The notes under the pieces: model-generated
What the model was told of the DNA's origin: nothing
The model's database searches: none
Seen by the model: only the letters and a program-made list of their open reading frames with translations
In this document: piece by piece, positions 19,492 through 30,030 of the stretch
Position numbering within the stretch: the first letter of the stretch is position 1
Layout: each line of letters starts with the position of its first letter
Assembly (NCBI GenBank): GCA_017645905.1
Contig: JAGCNO010000014.1
Span: 1 to 33,192 of the forward strand
Direction of reading: 5' to 3'
Source: Prevotella sp.
Lineage (GTDB): Bacteria > Bacteroidota > Bacteroidia > Bacteroidales > Bacteroidaceae
DNA: 33,192 nt
Made by a program: the position numbers and the translations under genes

Positions 19492-21252
19492 TTATGCTTT
19501 GATTTTACCCGTAACTATTTCCATGATTTCTCGCTCGGCCTCGTTAGCCTGGGCAATGAGTGCATCGGCCTCAGCAACAAGTTTCTCAGCAACGTCGCGG
19601 TCGGAAAGCTGTGCGGCATTAATCTTCACATTCAGTCCGGCACCGAGCACGGCGGCGCGGGCGGCCAGTGCACCGACACCGGCATCGCTGACGCTGGCGG
19701 GATTGCCCTCCTCGGCCATAGCCTTGCAGAGCAGGAAAACTTGCATGGCGGTATCCATAGTAAGCAAGGGCACATTGGCTGCTTGGAACGTGGCAGCCTC
19801 GATGGCTTCCTGACGGGCAGCACGTTCGGCATCGGTGTTCTTCGGCATGTGTAGGGCTTCCATCACGTCGTTGAAGGCCATTGTGTCGGCTTCGACGAGG
19901 TTGAGCAGCAGACACCTGAACGCCTGGCCCTGATCAGCCCAACGGGAGAACTCTTGCCAGCGGTCATCCCAGCCAGCCTTGTGGGAAGATAGGTTGGCCA
20001 CCATCGTACCGAGAGCAGCTCCAAGAGCACCCATATAAGCTGCAACCGTACCACCGCCGGGGGCAGGACTCTCTCGGGAGGTCTCCTCAGCAAAGGCTTT
20101 CACCGAGAGGTCTGTCAGAGAGGAAGAACCGCTCTGCTCGGACGCTTCAATCAGATACTCGATGACCTTCTCCTTCGGGTTGAAGGGACGGAGGTCGTCA
20201 AGACTCATCGACTTGATGGCGATCTTCAAAATGTCGGCTTCAGGGATGCCTGTTGAGCGGTGCTGTTTCTCCAAGAAGTAGCGGCCGGCGTCGATGAGCG
20301 TCTGTTTGGGCACGAGACCCACAATCTCAGTTCCTGTAACTCGGACTCCACGATTGGCAGCACAGCGGCACACCTCGTCGAAGGCTACATGCAGGGGCGT
20401 TACCTTCAGGTTGGTCATGTTCATCGACACCTGGGCGATGCCATACTCGTCGATGTACCAACCGATAGCCTTGGTACATTTCAGCGTGCCGGGAATCATG
20501 ACGGGCTTGCCGTCCTTGTCTCGGACAATGGTTCCAGTGATGGGATTGCCCTCGCGCTTGGGACGACCTTTCTCACGGACGTCGAAGGCGATGGCGTTGG
20601 CACGGCGCGTGCTGGTGGTGTTAAGGTTGAAGTTTACGGCAATGAGGAAGTCACGGGCACCGACCACAGTACAACCTGTCTTCAAGAGGTGGGTGGTGAG
20701 GGGTGAGGGGTGAGAGATTTGTTTCTTCAACTCTTCAGGGTCGAAGCCAGGTGGCATGAAGTCCGGTCGTTTATCGGGGTCAGTGAGCTTCTGGGGCAAT
20801 GCCTCATACTCTCCGGCACGGCAGACAGCGAGGTTCTTACGTTCGGGTCGGAAGGCCGAAGCCTCGTAGCAGTAGCAGGGGATGTTAGCCTCTTCAGCAA
20901 TTCGACGTGCCAGTTCTCGCGCCAGTTCGGCACATTCCTCAAGGGTGATACCGCTGACGGGAATGAGGGGCAGCACGTCAGTAGCTCCCATTCGGGGATG
21001 TGCTCCGTGATGCTTCCGCATGTCAATCACCTCGCCCGCTTTCTTCACAGCACGGAAGGCAGCCTCCACAACAGACTCCGGCGAGCCCACAAACGTCACA
21101 ACAGTGCGGTTTGTGGCCTCGCCGGGGTCTACGTTGAGCAGACTGACGCCTTCTACGGATTCTATCTCATTGGTTATCTGTTTGATAACACTCATGTCGC
21201 GCCCTTCGCTGAAGTTGGGCACGCACTCCACAATTTGTTTCTTGTCTACCAT
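19492..21252 (-). CDS. ftcD: Fused glutamate formimidoyltransferase / formimidoyltetrahydrofolate cyclodeaminase
   Basis: 586 aa; moves the formimino group from formiminoglutamate to tetrahydrofolate and then releases ammonia, giving glutamate and methenyl-THF. N-terminal transferase domain about 1-335 (VECVPNFSEGR; His82 in KHHGAHPRMGATDVLP matches the catalytic His of the mammalian enzyme). C-terminal cyclodeaminase domain about 375-586 (ESPAPGGGTVAAYMGALGAAL). The two activities are fused as in animal FTCD. Residues about 180-191 (SHPSPLTTHLLK) look like a simple-repeat insert encoded by GTGAGGGGTGAGG-type DNA. An upstream in-frame ATG at 21291 lies in the promoter, so MVDKKQ at 21252 is the start. 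First gene of the hut operon. Confidence 0.95.
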   Translation of the reverse strand: MVDKKQIVECVPNFSEGRDMSVIKQITNEIESVEGVSLLNVDPGEATNRTVVTFVGSPESVVEAAFRAVKKAGEVIDMRKHHGAHPRMGATDVLPLIPVSGITLEECAELARELARRIAEEANIPCYCYEASAFRPERKNLAVCRAGEYEALPQKLTDPDKRPDFMPPGFDPEELKKQISHPSPLTTHLLKTGCTVVGARDFLIAVNFNLNTTSTRRANAIAFDVREKGRPKREGNPITGTIVRDKDGKPVMIPGTLKCTKAIGWYIDEYGIAQVSMNMTNLKVTPLHVAFDEVCRCAANRGVRVTGTEIVGLVPKQTLIDAGRYFLEKQHRSTGIPEADILKIAIKSMSLDDLRPFNPKEKVIEYLIEASEQSGSSSLTDLSVKAFAEETSRESPAPGGGTVAAYMGALGAALGTMVANLSSHKAGWDDRWQEFSRWADQGQAFRCLLLNLVEADTMAFNDVMEALHMPKNTDAERAARQEAIEAATFQAANVPLLTMDTAMQVFLLCKAMAEEGNPASVSDAGVGALAARAAVLGAGLNVKINAAQLSDRDVAEKLVAEADALIAQANEAEREIMEIVTGKIKA

Positions 21253-24854: not shown

Positions 24855-24862
24855 TACCTTTG
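24855..24862 (+). promoter_or_regulatory. Promoter -7 element of the export cassette
   Basis: TACCTTTG at 24855-24862 fits the consensus; the -33 region is AT-rich without a clear TTTG. Transcription near 24869 would leave about 14 nt before the GTG start. Confidence 0.5.
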
Positions 24863-24882: not shown

Positions 24883-25710
24883 GTGAAGAAAGAGAGTCCT
24901 TTTTCAGAGAATAGCCGTCAGCGACAACTGGAGTCGCCCGACCACGTGCAGGAATATGTGCGCGTCACTTCTGTTTCGCCCTTCCTCATCGGCCTGACCA
25001 TCCTGCTCCTGCTGGGAGCCTTTGTCGTGTGGGGAGTCTTCGGCACCGTCGCCGACAGGGTGCAGTATACCGGACTTATCTTCCCCCATCATGGCACGGA
25101 CGACGTGACCCTGCAGTCGAGAGGCTCCGTCATTAGGATGCTGGTGCATACAGGCGACTCAGTGGTGGTTGGCCAGGAGGTAGCCTACGTAGAGACGCTG
25201 GGACGCGACAGCGTGATACACAGTGCCATCGCGGGTATCGTGTTGCATACAAAGCAGGACCGCGAGTCGTTTGAACCAATGGAGCCCCTCGTGAGCATGG
25301 TCTGCGAGCATCATGACCACACGGTGCACACCATGCTCCTGGCATACGTGAAGATGGAGACCCACCACGTGCTGAAGGAAGGTATGGAGGCGCAGGTGTG
25401 GCCCATAGGCGACGACCGCGACAAGATAGGCTATGTAAGGGGTGTCATCACTGACATTGACCCCTACCCCACCCCGGTGGCCGAAATCATCAGCCAGCTG
25501 AAGAGTGCTGCTATGGCCGAGCTGCTCTTCGACACCAACGAGCCCGTGTGGCAGGTGGTCATCGAGCTGCGCCATAATCCCGAAGACCCCGAACTGTATG
25601 ACTGGGCCTCAGGTAATCCCGATGATGTGGAGATGACGGTCGGCACGTTCTGCAATGTGCTGACCGAGACGCGCAGCCGCTCCATGTACCAATATCTATT
25701 TAATCTGTAA
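24883..25710 (+). CDS. NHLM/NHLP-type export system HlyD-like membrane fusion protein
   Basis: 275 aa. N-terminal cytoplasmic stretch (RQLESPDHVQEYVRVTSVSP) followed by one membrane helix (33-53, FLIGLTILLLLGAFVVWGVFG) and a periplasmic part with a lipoyl-like hairpin (about 84-109, RGSVIRMLVHTGDSVVVGQEVA). The 'L-x-SP-x-x-x-x-x-x-x-V-T' entry followed directly by the helix is typical of the secretion proteins of NHLP bacteriocin systems. It would link the two ABC proteins to the outer parts of the envelope. Start is GTG; no in-frame ATG exists near it. Its stop lies 3 bp before the next gene. No precursor peptide gene is found upstream. Confidence 0.8.
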   Translation: MKKESPFSENSRQRQLESPDHVQEYVRVTSVSPFLIGLTILLLLGAFVVWGVFGTVADRVQYTGLIFPHHGTDDVTLQSRGSVIRMLVHTGDSVVVGQEVAYVETLGRDSVIHSAIAGIVLHTKQDRESFEPMEPLVSMVCEHHDHTVHTMLLAYVKMETHHVLKEGMEAQVWPIGDDRDKIGYVRGVITDIDPYPTPVAEIISQLKSAAMAELLFDTNEPVWQVVIELRHNPEDPELYDWASGNPDDVEMTVGTFCNVLTETRSRSMYQYLFNL

Positions 25711-25713
25711 AAA

Positions 25714-27480
25714 TTGGAAACGAAGAAGACGACATGGGGATTGCTCTACCGCTTCATGAAGGCGGGTGGCACCCTTTTCTGGATGATTATCCTGCTCTAT
25801 GTCATCACCATTGGCATGGAGCTGTTTCCGCCTTTCTTCCAACAGATCTTTACCGATAACATCATCACGGGGAAGAACCCGGAGTGGTTCACCCCGCTGA
25901 TGATTATCTTCGGCTCGCTGTTTGTTCTCGAACTGATAGCATGGCTGGTGCTCAACAGTCATCGCCGCACGCTGACCATGCGGTTCAGCCTCGTCAGCCA
26001 ATCACGCTACGTGTGGCATGTGTTGCGTCTGCCTATGTCAGCCTTCAGTAAGTTTTCCACGGGCGACCTCATGGTCCGTTACATGGGCATCACCCGTACG
26101 GGCGTGAAGCTCTTCGACCAGGTGCCCGGCATAGTGCTTCTCTTCAACATTCTCATCTTCTCCTACTTGCTGTTCTTCTACAGCTGGCGGCTGGGCATCA
26201 TCGAGATTCTGGCCCTGGCCACCATCATCATGTCCGTACGTCTCAGCGCCAGTTACCAGAAGCGGAAGGCGAAGGACATGGAGGTCACGGAGCGTCACCT
26301 TCAGAGTGCCACTATGGCGGGGATGCGTAACATGGAGACCATCAAGTCGGCCGGGGCCGAACAGGGCTTCTTCCAGCGGTGGGATGCCATCTATGCCTGT
26401 GCCCTCAATGCCCGTGTCACCGCCACCCGTCAGATGATTCTCGTGGCTGCGTTGCCAACGCTGGTGCAACAGCTGAGTAATGCGCTGGTGCTCTGTCTGG
26501 GAGCACTGTTCATCCTCGACGGCGACCTCACGCCCGGTATGCTTTTAGCCTCGCAAGCCTTCATGACTTCCATGCTCTTCCCCGTGACAAAGATTTCCAA
26601 CGTCATGCAGGAGGTGTTCAAGGCCCACTCCGTGCTCGAGCGGCAGGAGGAAGTGCTTGATGAGCCTTTAAATGGGAGTGAAGAAGGAGTGAAAGGGACG
26701 TTAGATAATAAAGCAGACGAGCAGAAGTATCGTCCCCTTCACTCCCCTTCTTCTGTCAAGCTCCTCGGCGAAATCGAGCTCCGCGACGTCACCTTCGGCT
26801 ACGACCGCTCTCAGCCGCCCCTCATCTCCCATCTCTCCCTTCACATCAAGCCCGGCGAGCACATTGCCTTCGTAGGTAAGTCGGGCTGCGGAAAGAGCAC
26901 CATTCTGATGCTCGTCGCCGGACTCTACGAACCCTGGGAGGGCGAGGTGCTCATCGACGGCGTGCCTGTCAGCGAGATTGACCGCATGAAGCTTACTGGC
27001 AGTCTCGGACTGGTCAGCCAGGACGTGACGCTGTTTGAAGGAACGATAGCCGACAATATCCGTATGTGGGACCTGTCGATAGAGGATTTCGCCATAAAAA
27101 CGGCTGCGGCCAATGCCCAGATACACGACGAGATTGCCTGTCGGCCCGATGCCTACGACGGTATCGTCACCACCGGTGGACAGAATTTCTCCGGCGGTCA
27201 GCGCCAGCGACTGGAGATTGCCGCCGCCCTGGCCAAGGAGCCCACGCTGCTCCTGCTCGACGAGGCTACCTCGGCCCTCGACGGGAAGACCGAGGAGCTG
27301 GTCATGAAAGCCCTATACGGCCTTGGCGCCACCCTGCTGATGATTGCCCACCGGCTGGAGACCGTCCGCCAGTGTGACCGCATCTACGTCATGGACTACG
27401 GCAACGTCGTCCAGACCGGCACCCATGACCAGCTGATGGCCGACCCCAACGGAATCTATTACAAACTGCATAACTCATAA
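25714..27480 (+). CDS. NHLM-type ABC transporter, permease/ATPase, without C39 peptidase domain
   Basis: 588 aa. Six-helix ABC exporter membrane domain (about 20-300) followed by an ATPase domain: Walker A GKSGCGKST (388-396), Q-loop Gln436, signature FSGGQ (492-496), Walker B LLLLDEA (512-518), switch His546. The corresponding subunit of NHLM systems carries an N-terminal C39 peptidase of about 150 aa that cleaves double-Gly leaders; here the protein begins almost at the first helix and no Cys/His pair precedes it. Residues 319-345 (NGSEEGVKGTL ... RPLHSPSS) are a translated copy of the GGAGTGAAAGGG inverted element, placed in the linker before the ATPase. The start is a TTG three bases after the previous stop; the first in-frame ATG is 14 codons later and would cut into the membrane domain. 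Confidence 0.85.
   Translation: METKKTTWGLLYRFMKAGGTLFWMIILLYVITIGMELFPPFFQQIFTDNIITGKNPEWFTPLMIIFGSLFVLELIAWLVLNSHRRTLTMRFSLVSQSRYVWHVLRLPMSAFSKFSTGDLMVRYMGITRTGVKLFDQVPGIVLLFNILIFSYLLFFYSWRLGIIEILALATIIMSVRLSASYQKRKAKDMEVTERHLQSATMAGMRNMETIKSAGAEQGFFQRWDAIYACALNARVTATRQMILVAALPTLVQQLSNALVLCLGALFILDGDLTPGMLLASQAFMTSMLFPVTKISNVMQEVFKAHSVLERQEEVLDEPLNGSEEGVKGTLDNKADEQKYRPLHSPSSVKLLGEIELRDVTFGYDRSQPPLISHLSLHIKPGEHIAFVGKSGCGKSTILMLVAGLYEPWEGEVLIDGVPVSEIDRMKLTGSLGLVSQDVTLFEGTIADNIRMWDLSIEDFAIKTAAANAQIHDEIACRPDAYDGIVTTGGQNFSGGQRQRLEIAAALAKEPTLLLLDEATSALDGKTEELVMKALYGLGATLLMIAHRLETVRQCDRIYVMDYGNVVQTGTHDQLMADPNGIYYKLHNS
26674..26752. repeat. GGAGTGAAAGGG inverted element inside the ABC gene
   Basis: Left end GGGAGTGAAGAAGGAGTGAA then GGGACGTTA; right end TATCGTCCCCTTCACTCCCC. 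Both ends match the intergenic element at 10170-10304, while the middle differs. It is in frame and encodes the linker between the membrane and ATPase domains. Confidence 0.8.
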
Positions 27481-27497
27481 CCCTCAAACCTCAACTA

Positions 27498-29642
27498 ATG
27501 GAGACCTTATATGAACAGTTGAAGCGCCGCATCGAAGGCAACCGCCAGGCCGTAGGTCAGGCGGGCGACTTGTTCATGTCTATGGTCAGCCGCGACGTGC
27601 TGCGCCGTATTGTGGGCAATGCTTCCCTGCGCAGCATTACTGGCGCCTCCACGCCCGACGACTTGGAGCAGCAGCTTGCCAAAGAGGGAATCTTCTTCCG
27701 TCAGGTGACCCTGGAAGGCCCTTGGTGGAAGCACACCACCGGCCGGCTCCTGGCTTTCCTGCAGGAAGACGACACGCCCGTCATCCTCATGCCCGGCTTT
27801 GCCAGCTATTCCTTCATCCATCCACACACCAGAAAACGCATCAAGATCAGCGGCCAGTCTACCATCCTGAAACCCGAGGCTTTCTGCCTGACTCAACCGC
27901 TCTCCCCCTCCGCCCCCGTTGCCGAGTCGTCAGCCGAGGGCCTCTCCTCCCCCCTCACCCTTCGTGACTTGGGCCGTTTCGCCTGGCACAGCCTCAGCAA
28001 TGCCGACCTCCTTTATATCTGCCTTGCCTGTATCAGCGTCGTCCTGCTCACCATGTTCACCCCTTACGTCACGAAGCTGGTGTTCAGCGAGGTCATCCCT
28101 TCTGGCGACTCCTCCCAACTTCTGCCCGTGGCCGTGTTGCTGTTCAGCGCCTCCCTCGGCCTGGTAATGCTTCAGGTGACGCGCAGCCTCGTGGTGTTCC
28201 GGGTAAAGGACAAGCTGGAGTATTCCCTGCAGACGGCCCTGATGACCCGCCTGCTCCATCTGCCGGCCACTTTCTTCAAGACCTGGTCGGCAGCCGACCT
28301 GTCCAACCGTGTGCTCTCGCTCTCCCGTTTCAGCGGCCTGCTGACCGAGAATATCCTGACTACGATACTCTCGACGCTGTTCACCGGCATCCTGTTCATA
28401 CAGTTCTTCATCTACGGCGGACCGCTGCTCTTCATTGGCATCGGCGTATTGGCCGTGATGACGTTCTTCATCATGCTCAACTATTACTACACGAAGAAGG
28501 TGCAGGAGCGCGTCACTCCCCAGCGTTCCAGGATGTACGGACTGCTCTACGAGATGCTGGGCGGCATACAGAAGATACGCGTCAACGGTGCCGAGGAACG
28601 TGCTTTCCGCCAGTGGGCCGAGACCCTTGTCGATGCTGAGGAGAACAGCGCCTCACAGCCCGCTATGTATTTCTATACCAGCTCCATAGCCTACGTCGTC
28701 AAGCTGCTGCCGCTACTTGTCACGATGTGGGCTGCCTGGCAATACCGTCTCGGGCTCTCCGACTATATCGCCTACTGCTCCGTCCTCGCCATTGCCGTTT
28801 CCACCATCCAGCAACTGGGCACTATCATGAAGCAGATAGGCCGCCTCATGCCAGAGGTTCGCCAGTGCAGTCCCATCCTGGAGACACCCACGGAAGAGTC
28901 CAGCGAGCAGCATGTCCTGACAAACATCAGTGGCGATATCGAGGTCAGCGGCATCTCCTTCCGCTATCCTCCCCTCCCCACGGAGGAAGGTCCTACACCC
29001 TGGATATTCAACGGTCTCAACCTGCATATACGTCCGGGCGAATATGTCGCCATCATCGGACCCTCGGGATGCGGAAAGTCCACGTTGCTGCGTCTGCTTC
29101 TCGGCTTCGAGGAACCGTCCGAGGGCTCCATCTTCTACGATCATTATAACCTGCGTGATATCAACAAGTCGAGCCTGCGCCGTAACTGCGTGGCCGCCGT
29201 TCTGCAGAACGGTCGCTTAGTGGAGGGCACGCTCCTCGACAACATCCTCTTCACCGCTCCCGCTGCCACCGAGGCTGATGCCTGGGAGGCCGCCCGGCTG
29301 GTTTCGCTCGACGAGGATATCAGCCGCATGCCCTTAGGGATGCTCACCCCCATATCGGAAGACGGACTGGGCATCTCCGGCGGACAGCGACAGCGCATCC
29401 TCCTGGCTCGTGCCCTGGTGCAGCGTCCCGACATCCTGCTGCTCGACGAGGCCACTTCGGCTCTCGACAATGTCACCCAGCAGCAAGTCATGAAACACCT
29501 TGCTCGGATGCGCTGCACCCGTATCACTATTGCCCATCGAAAGGAGACCATCCGCCAGTGCGACCGCATCATAGCCCTTGTCAATGGCCAAGTGGCGAAG
29601 GAAGGAACTTACGACGAAATGGTCGCTGCGGGATACATATAA
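27498..29642 (+). CDS. NHLM-type ABC transporter, second ATP-binding/permease subunit
   Basis: 714 aa. The N-terminal region of about 155 aa contains GPWWKHTTGRLLAFLQEDDTPVILMP, the signature of the second NHLM ABC subunit; it has no peptidase catalytic pair. Membrane helices follow (about 170-435) and then the ATPase: Walker A GPSGCGKST (521-529), signature ISGGQ (626-630), Walker B ILLLDEA (646-652), switch His680. It should pair with the preceding ABC protein as a heterodimer. A low-complexity stretch, 133-151 (QPLSPSAPVAESSAEGLSS), joins the N-terminal and membrane domains. Starts with ATG 17 bp after the first ABC gene. The transported molecule is unknown. Confidence 0.88.
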   Translation: METLYEQLKRRIEGNRQAVGQAGDLFMSMVSRDVLRRIVGNASLRSITGASTPDDLEQQLAKEGIFFRQVTLEGPWWKHTTGRLLAFLQEDDTPVILMPGFASYSFIHPHTRKRIKISGQSTILKPEAFCLTQPLSPSAPVAESSAEGLSSPLTLRDLGRFAWHSLSNADLLYICLACISVVLLTMFTPYVTKLVFSEVIPSGDSSQLLPVAVLLFSASLGLVMLQVTRSLVVFRVKDKLEYSLQTALMTRLLHLPATFFKTWSAADLSNRVLSLSRFSGLLTENILTTILSTLFTGILFIQFFIYGGPLLFIGIGVLAVMTFFIMLNYYYTKKVQERVTPQRSRMYGLLYEMLGGIQKIRVNGAEERAFRQWAETLVDAEENSASQPAMYFYTSSIAYVVKLLPLLVTMWAAWQYRLGLSDYIAYCSVLAIAVSTIQQLGTIMKQIGRLMPEVRQCSPILETPTEESSEQHVLTNISGDIEVSGISFRYPPLPTEEGPTPWIFNGLNLHIRPGEYVAIIGPSGCGKSTLLRLLLGFEEPSEGSIFYDHYNLRDINKSSLRRNCVAAVLQNGRLVEGTLLDNILFTAPAATEADAWEAARLVSLDEDISRMPLGMLTPISEDGLGISGGQRQRILLARALVQRPDILLLDEATSALDNVTQQQVMKHLARMRCTRITIAHRKETIRQCDRIIALVNGQVAKEGTYDEMVAAGYI

Positions 29643-29683: not shown

Positions 29684-30030
29684 ATGTTACTGACAATTAC
29701 CGACGTGGAATATCTGGGTGACTCTTTTTACCTTCAGCACCGGAGAGCGCCGTAAGGTGGACTCTATGAGCTGGGACAGGCGGCTTGAATGTTTTACGAA
29801 ACTGAAAGCGATATGAGCAGATAGACGACAGACATAGAACGACATAAGGATGCGTTGACTTTTTGATTCTTGATTCAGAAATTTCGCCAAAATATCTCCC
29901 GAGAATTAAAAGTTGATGCTCGCGTTTAGGCGCGGGCTGATACTTTATCTGGGAGAATGGCGTTTGGCGATGCCTCTGAATCGGATGCTGAATCAGTACC
30001 GCGCTTTCTTTGTGCTCATAATTAAGAAGG
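29684..30030 (+). pseudogene. Decayed small gene, DUF2442-like remnant
   Basis: The 456-bp gap after the exporter starts with an excellent ribosome site (AGGAGG, 8 nt before the ATG at 29684). The frame MLLTITDVEYLGDSFYLQHRRAP stops at 29755, but shifting one base after YL continues as FSTGERRKVDSMSWDRR, and further pieces such as YFIWENGV appear near 29942-29965 in yet another frame. VEYLGD...L.FSTGE resembles the start of DUF2442 proteins and FIWENG their end, so this is probably a multiply frameshifted copy. The intact 23-codon frame could still be translated. The rest of the gap holds a short TTGATTC repeat and the regulator's upstream region. Confidence 0.4.

Follow-up and report, generated by a model that had tools for sequence, protein, structure and literature searches.

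The 33,192-nt stretch of Prevotella sp. DNA analyzed here (the window; contig JAGCNO010000014.1 of assembly GCA_017645905.1) carries a three-gene cassette that encodes an HlyD-like adaptor and two ATP-binding cassette (ABC) proteins, ABC1 and ABC2, and that resembles the NHLM-type bacteriocin export systems but contains neither the C39 leader peptidase domain in ABC1 nor a linked precursor with a Gly-Gly leader. The features of the cassette are the following:

24883..25710, + strand: HlyD-like adaptor, 275 aa, start codon GTG, intact open reading frame (ORF)
25714..27480, + strand: ABC1, 588 aa, start codon TTG, intact ORF; exporter transmembrane domain plus ATPase
27498..29642, + strand: ABC2, 714 aa, start codon ATG, intact ORF; second exporter subunit, which has an N-terminal domain of its own
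27498..27905, + strand: N-terminal domain of ABC2, approximately residues 1-136; predicted C39-like fold
24855..24862, + strand: candidate promoter -7 box of the TAnnTTTG type, TACCTTTG, located 20 bases upstream of the adaptor start codon

The three genes lie on one strand with intergenic gaps of 3 bases (adaptor-ABC1) and 17 bases (ABC1-ABC2), in the adaptor, ABC1, ABC2 order of the NHLM operon. The kinship with that system, which the first-pass annotation had read from this order, was borne out by profile searches, because the best NCBIfam matches of the adaptor (TIGR03794, 108.4 bits), ABC1 (TIGR03796, 530.5 bits) and ABC2 (TIGR03797, 594.1 bits) are the NHLM trio, although all three scores fall below the curated cut-offs (156.2, 853.3 and 709.4 bits, respectively). 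The two signature texts on which the annotation had also relied are real, SP..V..YVRVTSV being conserved among near adaptors in an alignment and L.G.WW..T.G.LLAF among near ABC2 proteins. When the three proteins were searched against Pfam at E 0.1, ABC1 and ABC2 each showed ABC_membrane (PF00664) and ABC_tran (PF00005), and no match to the C39 peptidase domain (PF03412) was obtained in the adaptor, ABC1 or ABC2. The alignment of ABC1 to TIGR03796 (710 profile positions) begins only at position 138, i.e. past the C39 part, and its first residues correspond to the point where the C39 domain stops in an alignment with C39-bearing relatives. Thus, the profile search that had been proposed as a check placed the NHLM families on top, revealed no C39 domain, and agreed with the claim that the first ABC subunit begins at the membrane domain. 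Because the gap between the adaptor and ABC1 genes is 3 bases, there is no space for a displaced C39 domain.

The absence of the peptidase domain recurs within the genus. The membrane domain of ABC1 gave matches at E 1e-30 or better in 62 of 398 genomes (81 rows). Forty-five of these rows, from 40 genomes that include the window's own, are short (577-596 aa) and match at E 6.7e-72 or better. Among the other 36 rows (E 4e-51 or worse), the frame length is 696-769 aa in 34 and lower in two, one of 633 aa with a C39 match and one of 604 aa (G380) that was not fetched. The recurrence of a C39-less ABC1 in 40 of 398 genomes is not due to chance. A C39 hidden Markov model built from 22 C39-type rows was then run on the six-frame translations of fetched loci of both kinds; it was positive in all 26 C39-type loci (22 of them by construction) and in 0 of 122 peptidase-free loci, some of which are cut by contig ends. 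Since 33 of the 122 are repeats, the latter figure represents 89 distinct loci, with near-copies still among them (L176/L180 and, judged by the upstream gene, L162/L163); in 9 of 80 loci ABC1 had been left uncalled by the gene caller, likely because of long antisense frames, and these were covered by the six-frame search. A peptidase gene fused or adjacent in relatives and merely displaced in the window, which had been named as a possible objection, was therefore not encountered in the neighborhoods surveyed.

Linked precursors were sought by applying a strict Gly-Gly-leader pattern to small ORFs (25-130 aa) not contained in large genes. No such ORF was present between positions 20001 and 33192 of the window, in agreement with the earlier statement that no Gly-Gly peptide gene lies upstream or downstream. 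Across the 26 C39-type loci (355 kb), the same search picked up 22 ORFs, distributed over 19 loci, a few of which may have arisen by chance; in the peptidase-free loci it found none, either in a set of 42 (569 kb) or in an overlapping set of 80 (1.08 Mb), which amounts to 0 of 89 once repeats are removed. The Gly-Gly-leader ORFs of the C39-type loci (L036-L041, L112-L131) are very small, several having merely 3-16 residues past the Gly-Gly. Near these C39-type operons, a STAS-type gene (9 of 26) and a histidine-kinase-like ATPase gene (8 of 26) were noticed by eye, an association that resembles a partner-switching regulator.

A quick tree of the membrane and ATPase parts of ABC1 (103 rows, no bootstrap) took 61 of the 82 distinct peptidase-free proteins and 5 of 14 outside rows; three C39-bearing rows (L124, L127 and L129) were excluded by a motif filter. 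The peptidase-free proteins formed one clade (61 rows, SH-like approximate likelihood ratio test (SH-aLRT) 100) and the C39-type proteins another (23 rows, SH-aLRT 98), the two being sisters at SH-aLRT 90, a value left unstarred. Three rows from other parts of the phylum, which carry a C39-type Cys motif, fell outside both clades, as did two exporters in which no such motif was found. The ABC2 proteins divide into the same pair of groups (7 and 7 rows). The single clade, together with the 45 short frames set against 36 others in the genus, supports the suggestion of a distinct peptidase-free branch. As the two clades are adjacent and rows with a C39-type motif lie outside both, loss of C39 is the simpler direction, and a single ancient loss of the ABC1 peptidase domain would be the simplest reading of these sequences.

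The distribution of the branch was followed in genome_contigs (described as holding 84,980 species genomes) with short patterns derived from peptidase-free proteins only, which cannot gauge how common C39-type systems are. Ninety-seven relatives were matched and the best 80 of the 97 were kept. Among these best 80, 57 have ruminant-foregut words or codes in their record titles, judged from titles only and with RUG taken by us to denote rumen genomes, and the taxa given in the titles are Prevotella, Prevotellaceae, Bacteroidaceae, Bacteroidales, Bacteroidia or simply bacterium. One locus of the branch (L182) comes from a record titled Clostridiales, perhaps a mislabeled or mixed bin. In evenly drawn samples, 393 genomes from the order and 395 from the phylum, no member of the branch besides the window was seen, the seven other matches at E 1e-30 being long frames of 723-784 aa. 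The observed range of the branch was thus confined to Prevotella and further Bacteroidales, largely from the ruminant foregut, and no published description of it was found in searches of the open-licence literature. A named strain, Prevotella ruminicola KHT3, is among the carriers (L155; its ABC1 is identical to that of L081 in genome G293), and the KHT3 genome, G293, also holds a C39-type operon (L116).

For the N-terminal domain of ABC2, the first 15 VIA rows are all C39 or C39-like domains, from four proteins, and no link was found by sequence, either from profiles to C39 or to PDB chains. The sole Cys of the domain is residue 130, which leaves the N-terminal end of ABC2 without a catalytic Cys. 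As the predicted fold suggests, ABC2 may retain a pseudo-peptidase domain.

We give about an even chance to the explanation that the cassette encodes a peptidase-free heterodimeric exporter, derived from an NHLM-type bacteriocin exporter, that pumps an unprocessed polypeptide encoded elsewhere. According to this model, an NHLM-type ancestor would have lost the C39 leader peptidase of ABC1, and ABC1 and ABC2 would form a heterodimeric ABC exporter served by the short HlyD-like adaptor. An unfolded, leaderless chain would dock at the N-terminal domain of ABC2, by analogy with the C39-like domain of HlyB, and the ABC1-ABC2 pair would push it out uncut. A linked TolC and a lipoprotein adaptor would complete the outer-membrane route in a sister subclade, and the subclade of the window would borrow a general TolC or deliver its cargo to the periplasm. 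More tentatively, and with less than even expectation, we consider it possible that a foregut-Bacteroidales branch lost the peptidase and the leader precursors together and became a route for uncleaved polypeptides through a dead C39-like dock on ABC2, with the subclade of the window left without a dedicated outer-membrane channel. Several observations weigh against an exporter of uncleaved polypeptides, and they are given below with the alternative that each of them favors.

If the cassette were still a bacteriocin exporter, leader peptides would be cut by a separate protease or the peptides would be encoded far away. In accordance with this alternative, a PF03412 protein above the cut-off is encoded elsewhere in 14 of the 41 carrier genomes, within C39-type NHLM operons where these were fetched, and five carriers without C39 (G105, G125, G239, G351 and G160) hold Gly-Gly-leader peptides elsewhere and so count against a perfect rule. 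However, the remaining 27 of the 41, and 9 of the 13 carriers of good quality (4 of 13 having a match), have no C39 above the cut-off, so that a C39 peptidase acting in trans, as had been proposed, is unlikely as a rule; the count covers C39 peptidases only. Gly-Gly peptides, moreover, track C39 among the carriers, being present in 8 of 14 genomes with C39 versus 5 of 27 without (Fisher p 0.017, from matches judged by pattern or by eye and leaving out a 681-aa frame in G177, an uninspected match in G412, and G031, whose C39 locus has a Gly-Gly ORF that the genome-wide search did not match). TIGR04149 was above the cut-off in 0 of 41 carrier genomes, with three weak matches. The assembly of the window itself (3.4 Mb, 181 contigs, 87.5% complete) yielded no PF03412 match above the cut-off and no confirmed Gly-Gly peptide candidate. 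On balance, continued bacteriocin export appears unlikely.

Some weaker signals were set aside or are simply recorded. A sub-threshold PF03412 match of 12.3 bits in the own assembly was regarded as chance. Of its two weak TIGR01847 matches (each at E 0.875), one falls within a ClpA-like gene, and the other is a 35-residue frame without methionine that recurs in G341 and G364 and was taken as the antisense of a conserved gene. Another carrier genome has a sub-threshold C39 match (G267:C61:4558-4890, 18.2 bits) whose frame is interrupted by three stops and which may represent a broken C39 gene.

Two subclades differ in the outer-membrane components linked to the cassette. Among 42 fetched loci, the window included, the adaptor gene precedes ABC1 in all 42 and ABC2 follows in 41, the remaining locus (L077) being cut by a contig end. 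The sister-type order is HlyD, ABC1, ABC2, TolC, lipoprotein adaptor, one example giving the Pfam matches OEP and HlyD_D23, with a linked TolC in 30 of 34 loci and the other 4 reaching contig ends; L035, which has no TolC after ABC2, was left out of the locus counts as its ABC1 is cut. In the window-type loci a linked TolC was found in 0 of 7 that could be judged, an eighth (L077) ending before ABC2; the search for unlinked components covered the lipoprotein adaptor and not TolC. The best matches to the sister-type lipoprotein in the eight window-type genomes are at most 31% identical, with none in G372, and the strongest of them (G259) lies inside a C39-type operon (L118). In some sister-type loci (L083, L089, L090, L177 and L215, with L169 and L205 repeating L083 and L089), a second ABC1-ABC2 pair without its own adaptor gene stands directly past the lipoprotein adaptor gene, an arrangement suggestive of two exporters that use a common adaptor and channel. 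The window's adaptor has a single transmembrane helix followed by a mostly beta body, in which the lipoyl halves are joined directly without an alpha-hairpin, as judged from the alignment and from a structure model with a mean predicted local distance difference test (pLDDT) of 79.9. The C39-type adaptors in the alignment are equally short.

The lack, in the window's subclade, of a linked outer-membrane channel and of a lipoprotein adaptor above 31% identity elsewhere would suit an NHLM pair that has grown into a small-molecule, lipid or glycan exporter, as would the absence of a linked precursor in all 89 loci and the resemblance of ABC1 to ABCB-type exporters in a PDB search. Nevertheless, the best family of ABC1 is by far NHLM (530.5 bits versus 284.9 bits for MsbA), the adaptor and a specialized ABC2 N-terminal domain have been retained, and adaptor, TolC and lipoprotein are kept together in most of the sister group. 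We regard a non-peptide cargo as unlikely.

The cassette might finally be a functionless, decaying remnant of an ordinary NHLM exporter, which would account for the missing peptidase and precursor and, in the window's subclade, for the missing linked TolC and lipoprotein genes. Against this stand frames free of inner stops in 40 of 398 genomes, the long separate branch, and the Walker A, signature, Walker B and H-loop motifs of ABC1, which were judged by eye to be intact. In comparisons with five near relatives, nonsynonymous divergence (dN) was 0.12-0.27 and synonymous divergence (dS) was above 1.3 or saturated; four close pairs had dN of 0.12-0.16 against a partly saturated dS above 1.3. The dN/dS ratio is about 0.1 or less. 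Because dN is low against a high dS, the cassette genes are maintained under purifying selection, and decay is very improbable.

A substrate gene next door was also considered and rejected, since no family was present in more than two loci when small ORFs (25-200 aa) not contained in large genes were cross-compared among 42 loci. The gene upstream of the cassette, recorded for 74 loci, is on the same strand in 51, within 300 bases in 46 of these, and of varied kinds; a loose lipoprotein-signal pattern is found in 20 of the 74 versus 57 of 385 background genes, a mild excess. A loose signal-peptide pattern, W..AA.L.CG...SC, gave 13 raw matches in a set of 42 peptidase-free loci and 9 in a set of 47, some of these matches being clearly spurious; the 26 C39-type loci had none and the 37 other loci had one. 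The pattern was discarded as a substrate mark because, among 39 genomes, some cassette-less ones are equally rich in it (24 matches in G018, 21 in G316 and 18 in G289), so that it tracks the lineage and not the exporter. The lipoprotein signal peptide in question, with its conserved W and a Cys-Gly before the lipobox, reaches 25 matches per genome in some Prevotella and is absent from 5 of the 39 genomes. A gene for a TPR lipoprotein with the look, by eye, of a SpoIIE-type phosphatase was noticed near some peptidase-free exporters (L084, L088, L101, L108, L154 and L174) and some C39-type ones (L116 and L122), several times directly upstream. A role in anti-phage defense was rejected, PADLOC having given generic ATPase-type matches.

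In the window, the cassette is preceded by a gene for a 330-aa Phytase-like protein and followed by one for a 190-aa protein with a cyclic-nucleotide-binding domain, both according to Pfam. A possible remnant of a small gene, which we would liken to DUF2442, is located at 29684-29800, between ABC2 and the next gene. The TAnnTTTG pattern of the candidate promoter box, which we take to be the Bacteroidota promoter consensus, occurs 18 times in the window versus 9.2 expected.

Names such as "NHLP bacteriocin export" are placed on genes of this kind by curated models, and the NHLM label need not mean a bacteriocin here. Since the peptidase and the linked precursor are jointly missing across the clade, the peptidase would be the part of the system tied to the leader, and the clade constitutes a natural test of what the remaining machine does. 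In Prevotella ruminicola KHT3, both exporter types can be compared in one cell.

Among known systems, the nearest family for all three proteins is NHLM/NHLP (TIGR03794, TIGR03796 and TIGR03797), with which the cassette shares the gene order. The relevant section of Haft et al. (2010, PMC2887384) describes an NHLM cassette as an ABC protein with a peptidase, one without, an HlyD homologue and adjoining Gly-Gly precursors. In contrast, ABC1 has no C39, there is no Gly-Gly precursor nearby, the scores are under the curated cut-offs, and the adaptor is a hairpin-less protein of 275 aa as opposed to the 421-position TIGR03794 profile. Because C39 and a Gly-Gly precursor were both looked for and were absent, the cassette was not filed as an NHLM member and would at most function in a similar manner. 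The shortfall in TIGR03796 is not merely an effect of the phylum, because the one C39-bearing congener ABC1 tested passes the cut-off with 881.5 bits, whereas two peptidase-free ABC1 proteins score 530.5 and 538.5 bits from profile position 136-138 onward. Two C39-type congener ABC2 proteins are also under the TIGR03797 cut-off (692 and 667.6 bits), and the one C39-type congener adaptor tested has no TIGR03794 match at E 1e-30. The C39-bearing NHLM-type operons of the genus are the sister clade in the quick tree and have the same gene order and the same short type of adaptor, but their C39 domains possess an invariant Cys and His (five rows aligned), and 19 of 26 are accompanied by Gly-Gly-leader ORFs. 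In this regard, the sections of PMC10352776 on nine Bacteroidales clusters tie peptidase-bearing exporters consistently to Gly-Gly precursors, two of the nine clusters being without an exporter. In PrtD-type type 1 secretion (TIGR01842), the ABC protein likewise begins at the membrane domain, a class of exporters without an N-terminal domain that is named in the relevant portion of PMC6959600, but the match of ABC1 is far weaker (226.7 versus 530.5 bits for TIGR03796). A functional parallel would be HlyB, whose dead C39-like domain is reported, in the pertinent parts of PMC8277102 and PMC6363468, to be essential for the export of an uncleaved protein. The cassette would share with HlyB the absence of cleavage and a dead C39-like docking domain, which HlyB, as described there, has on a single ABC protein and which in the window would be confined to ABC2, the likeness being one of predicted fold only.
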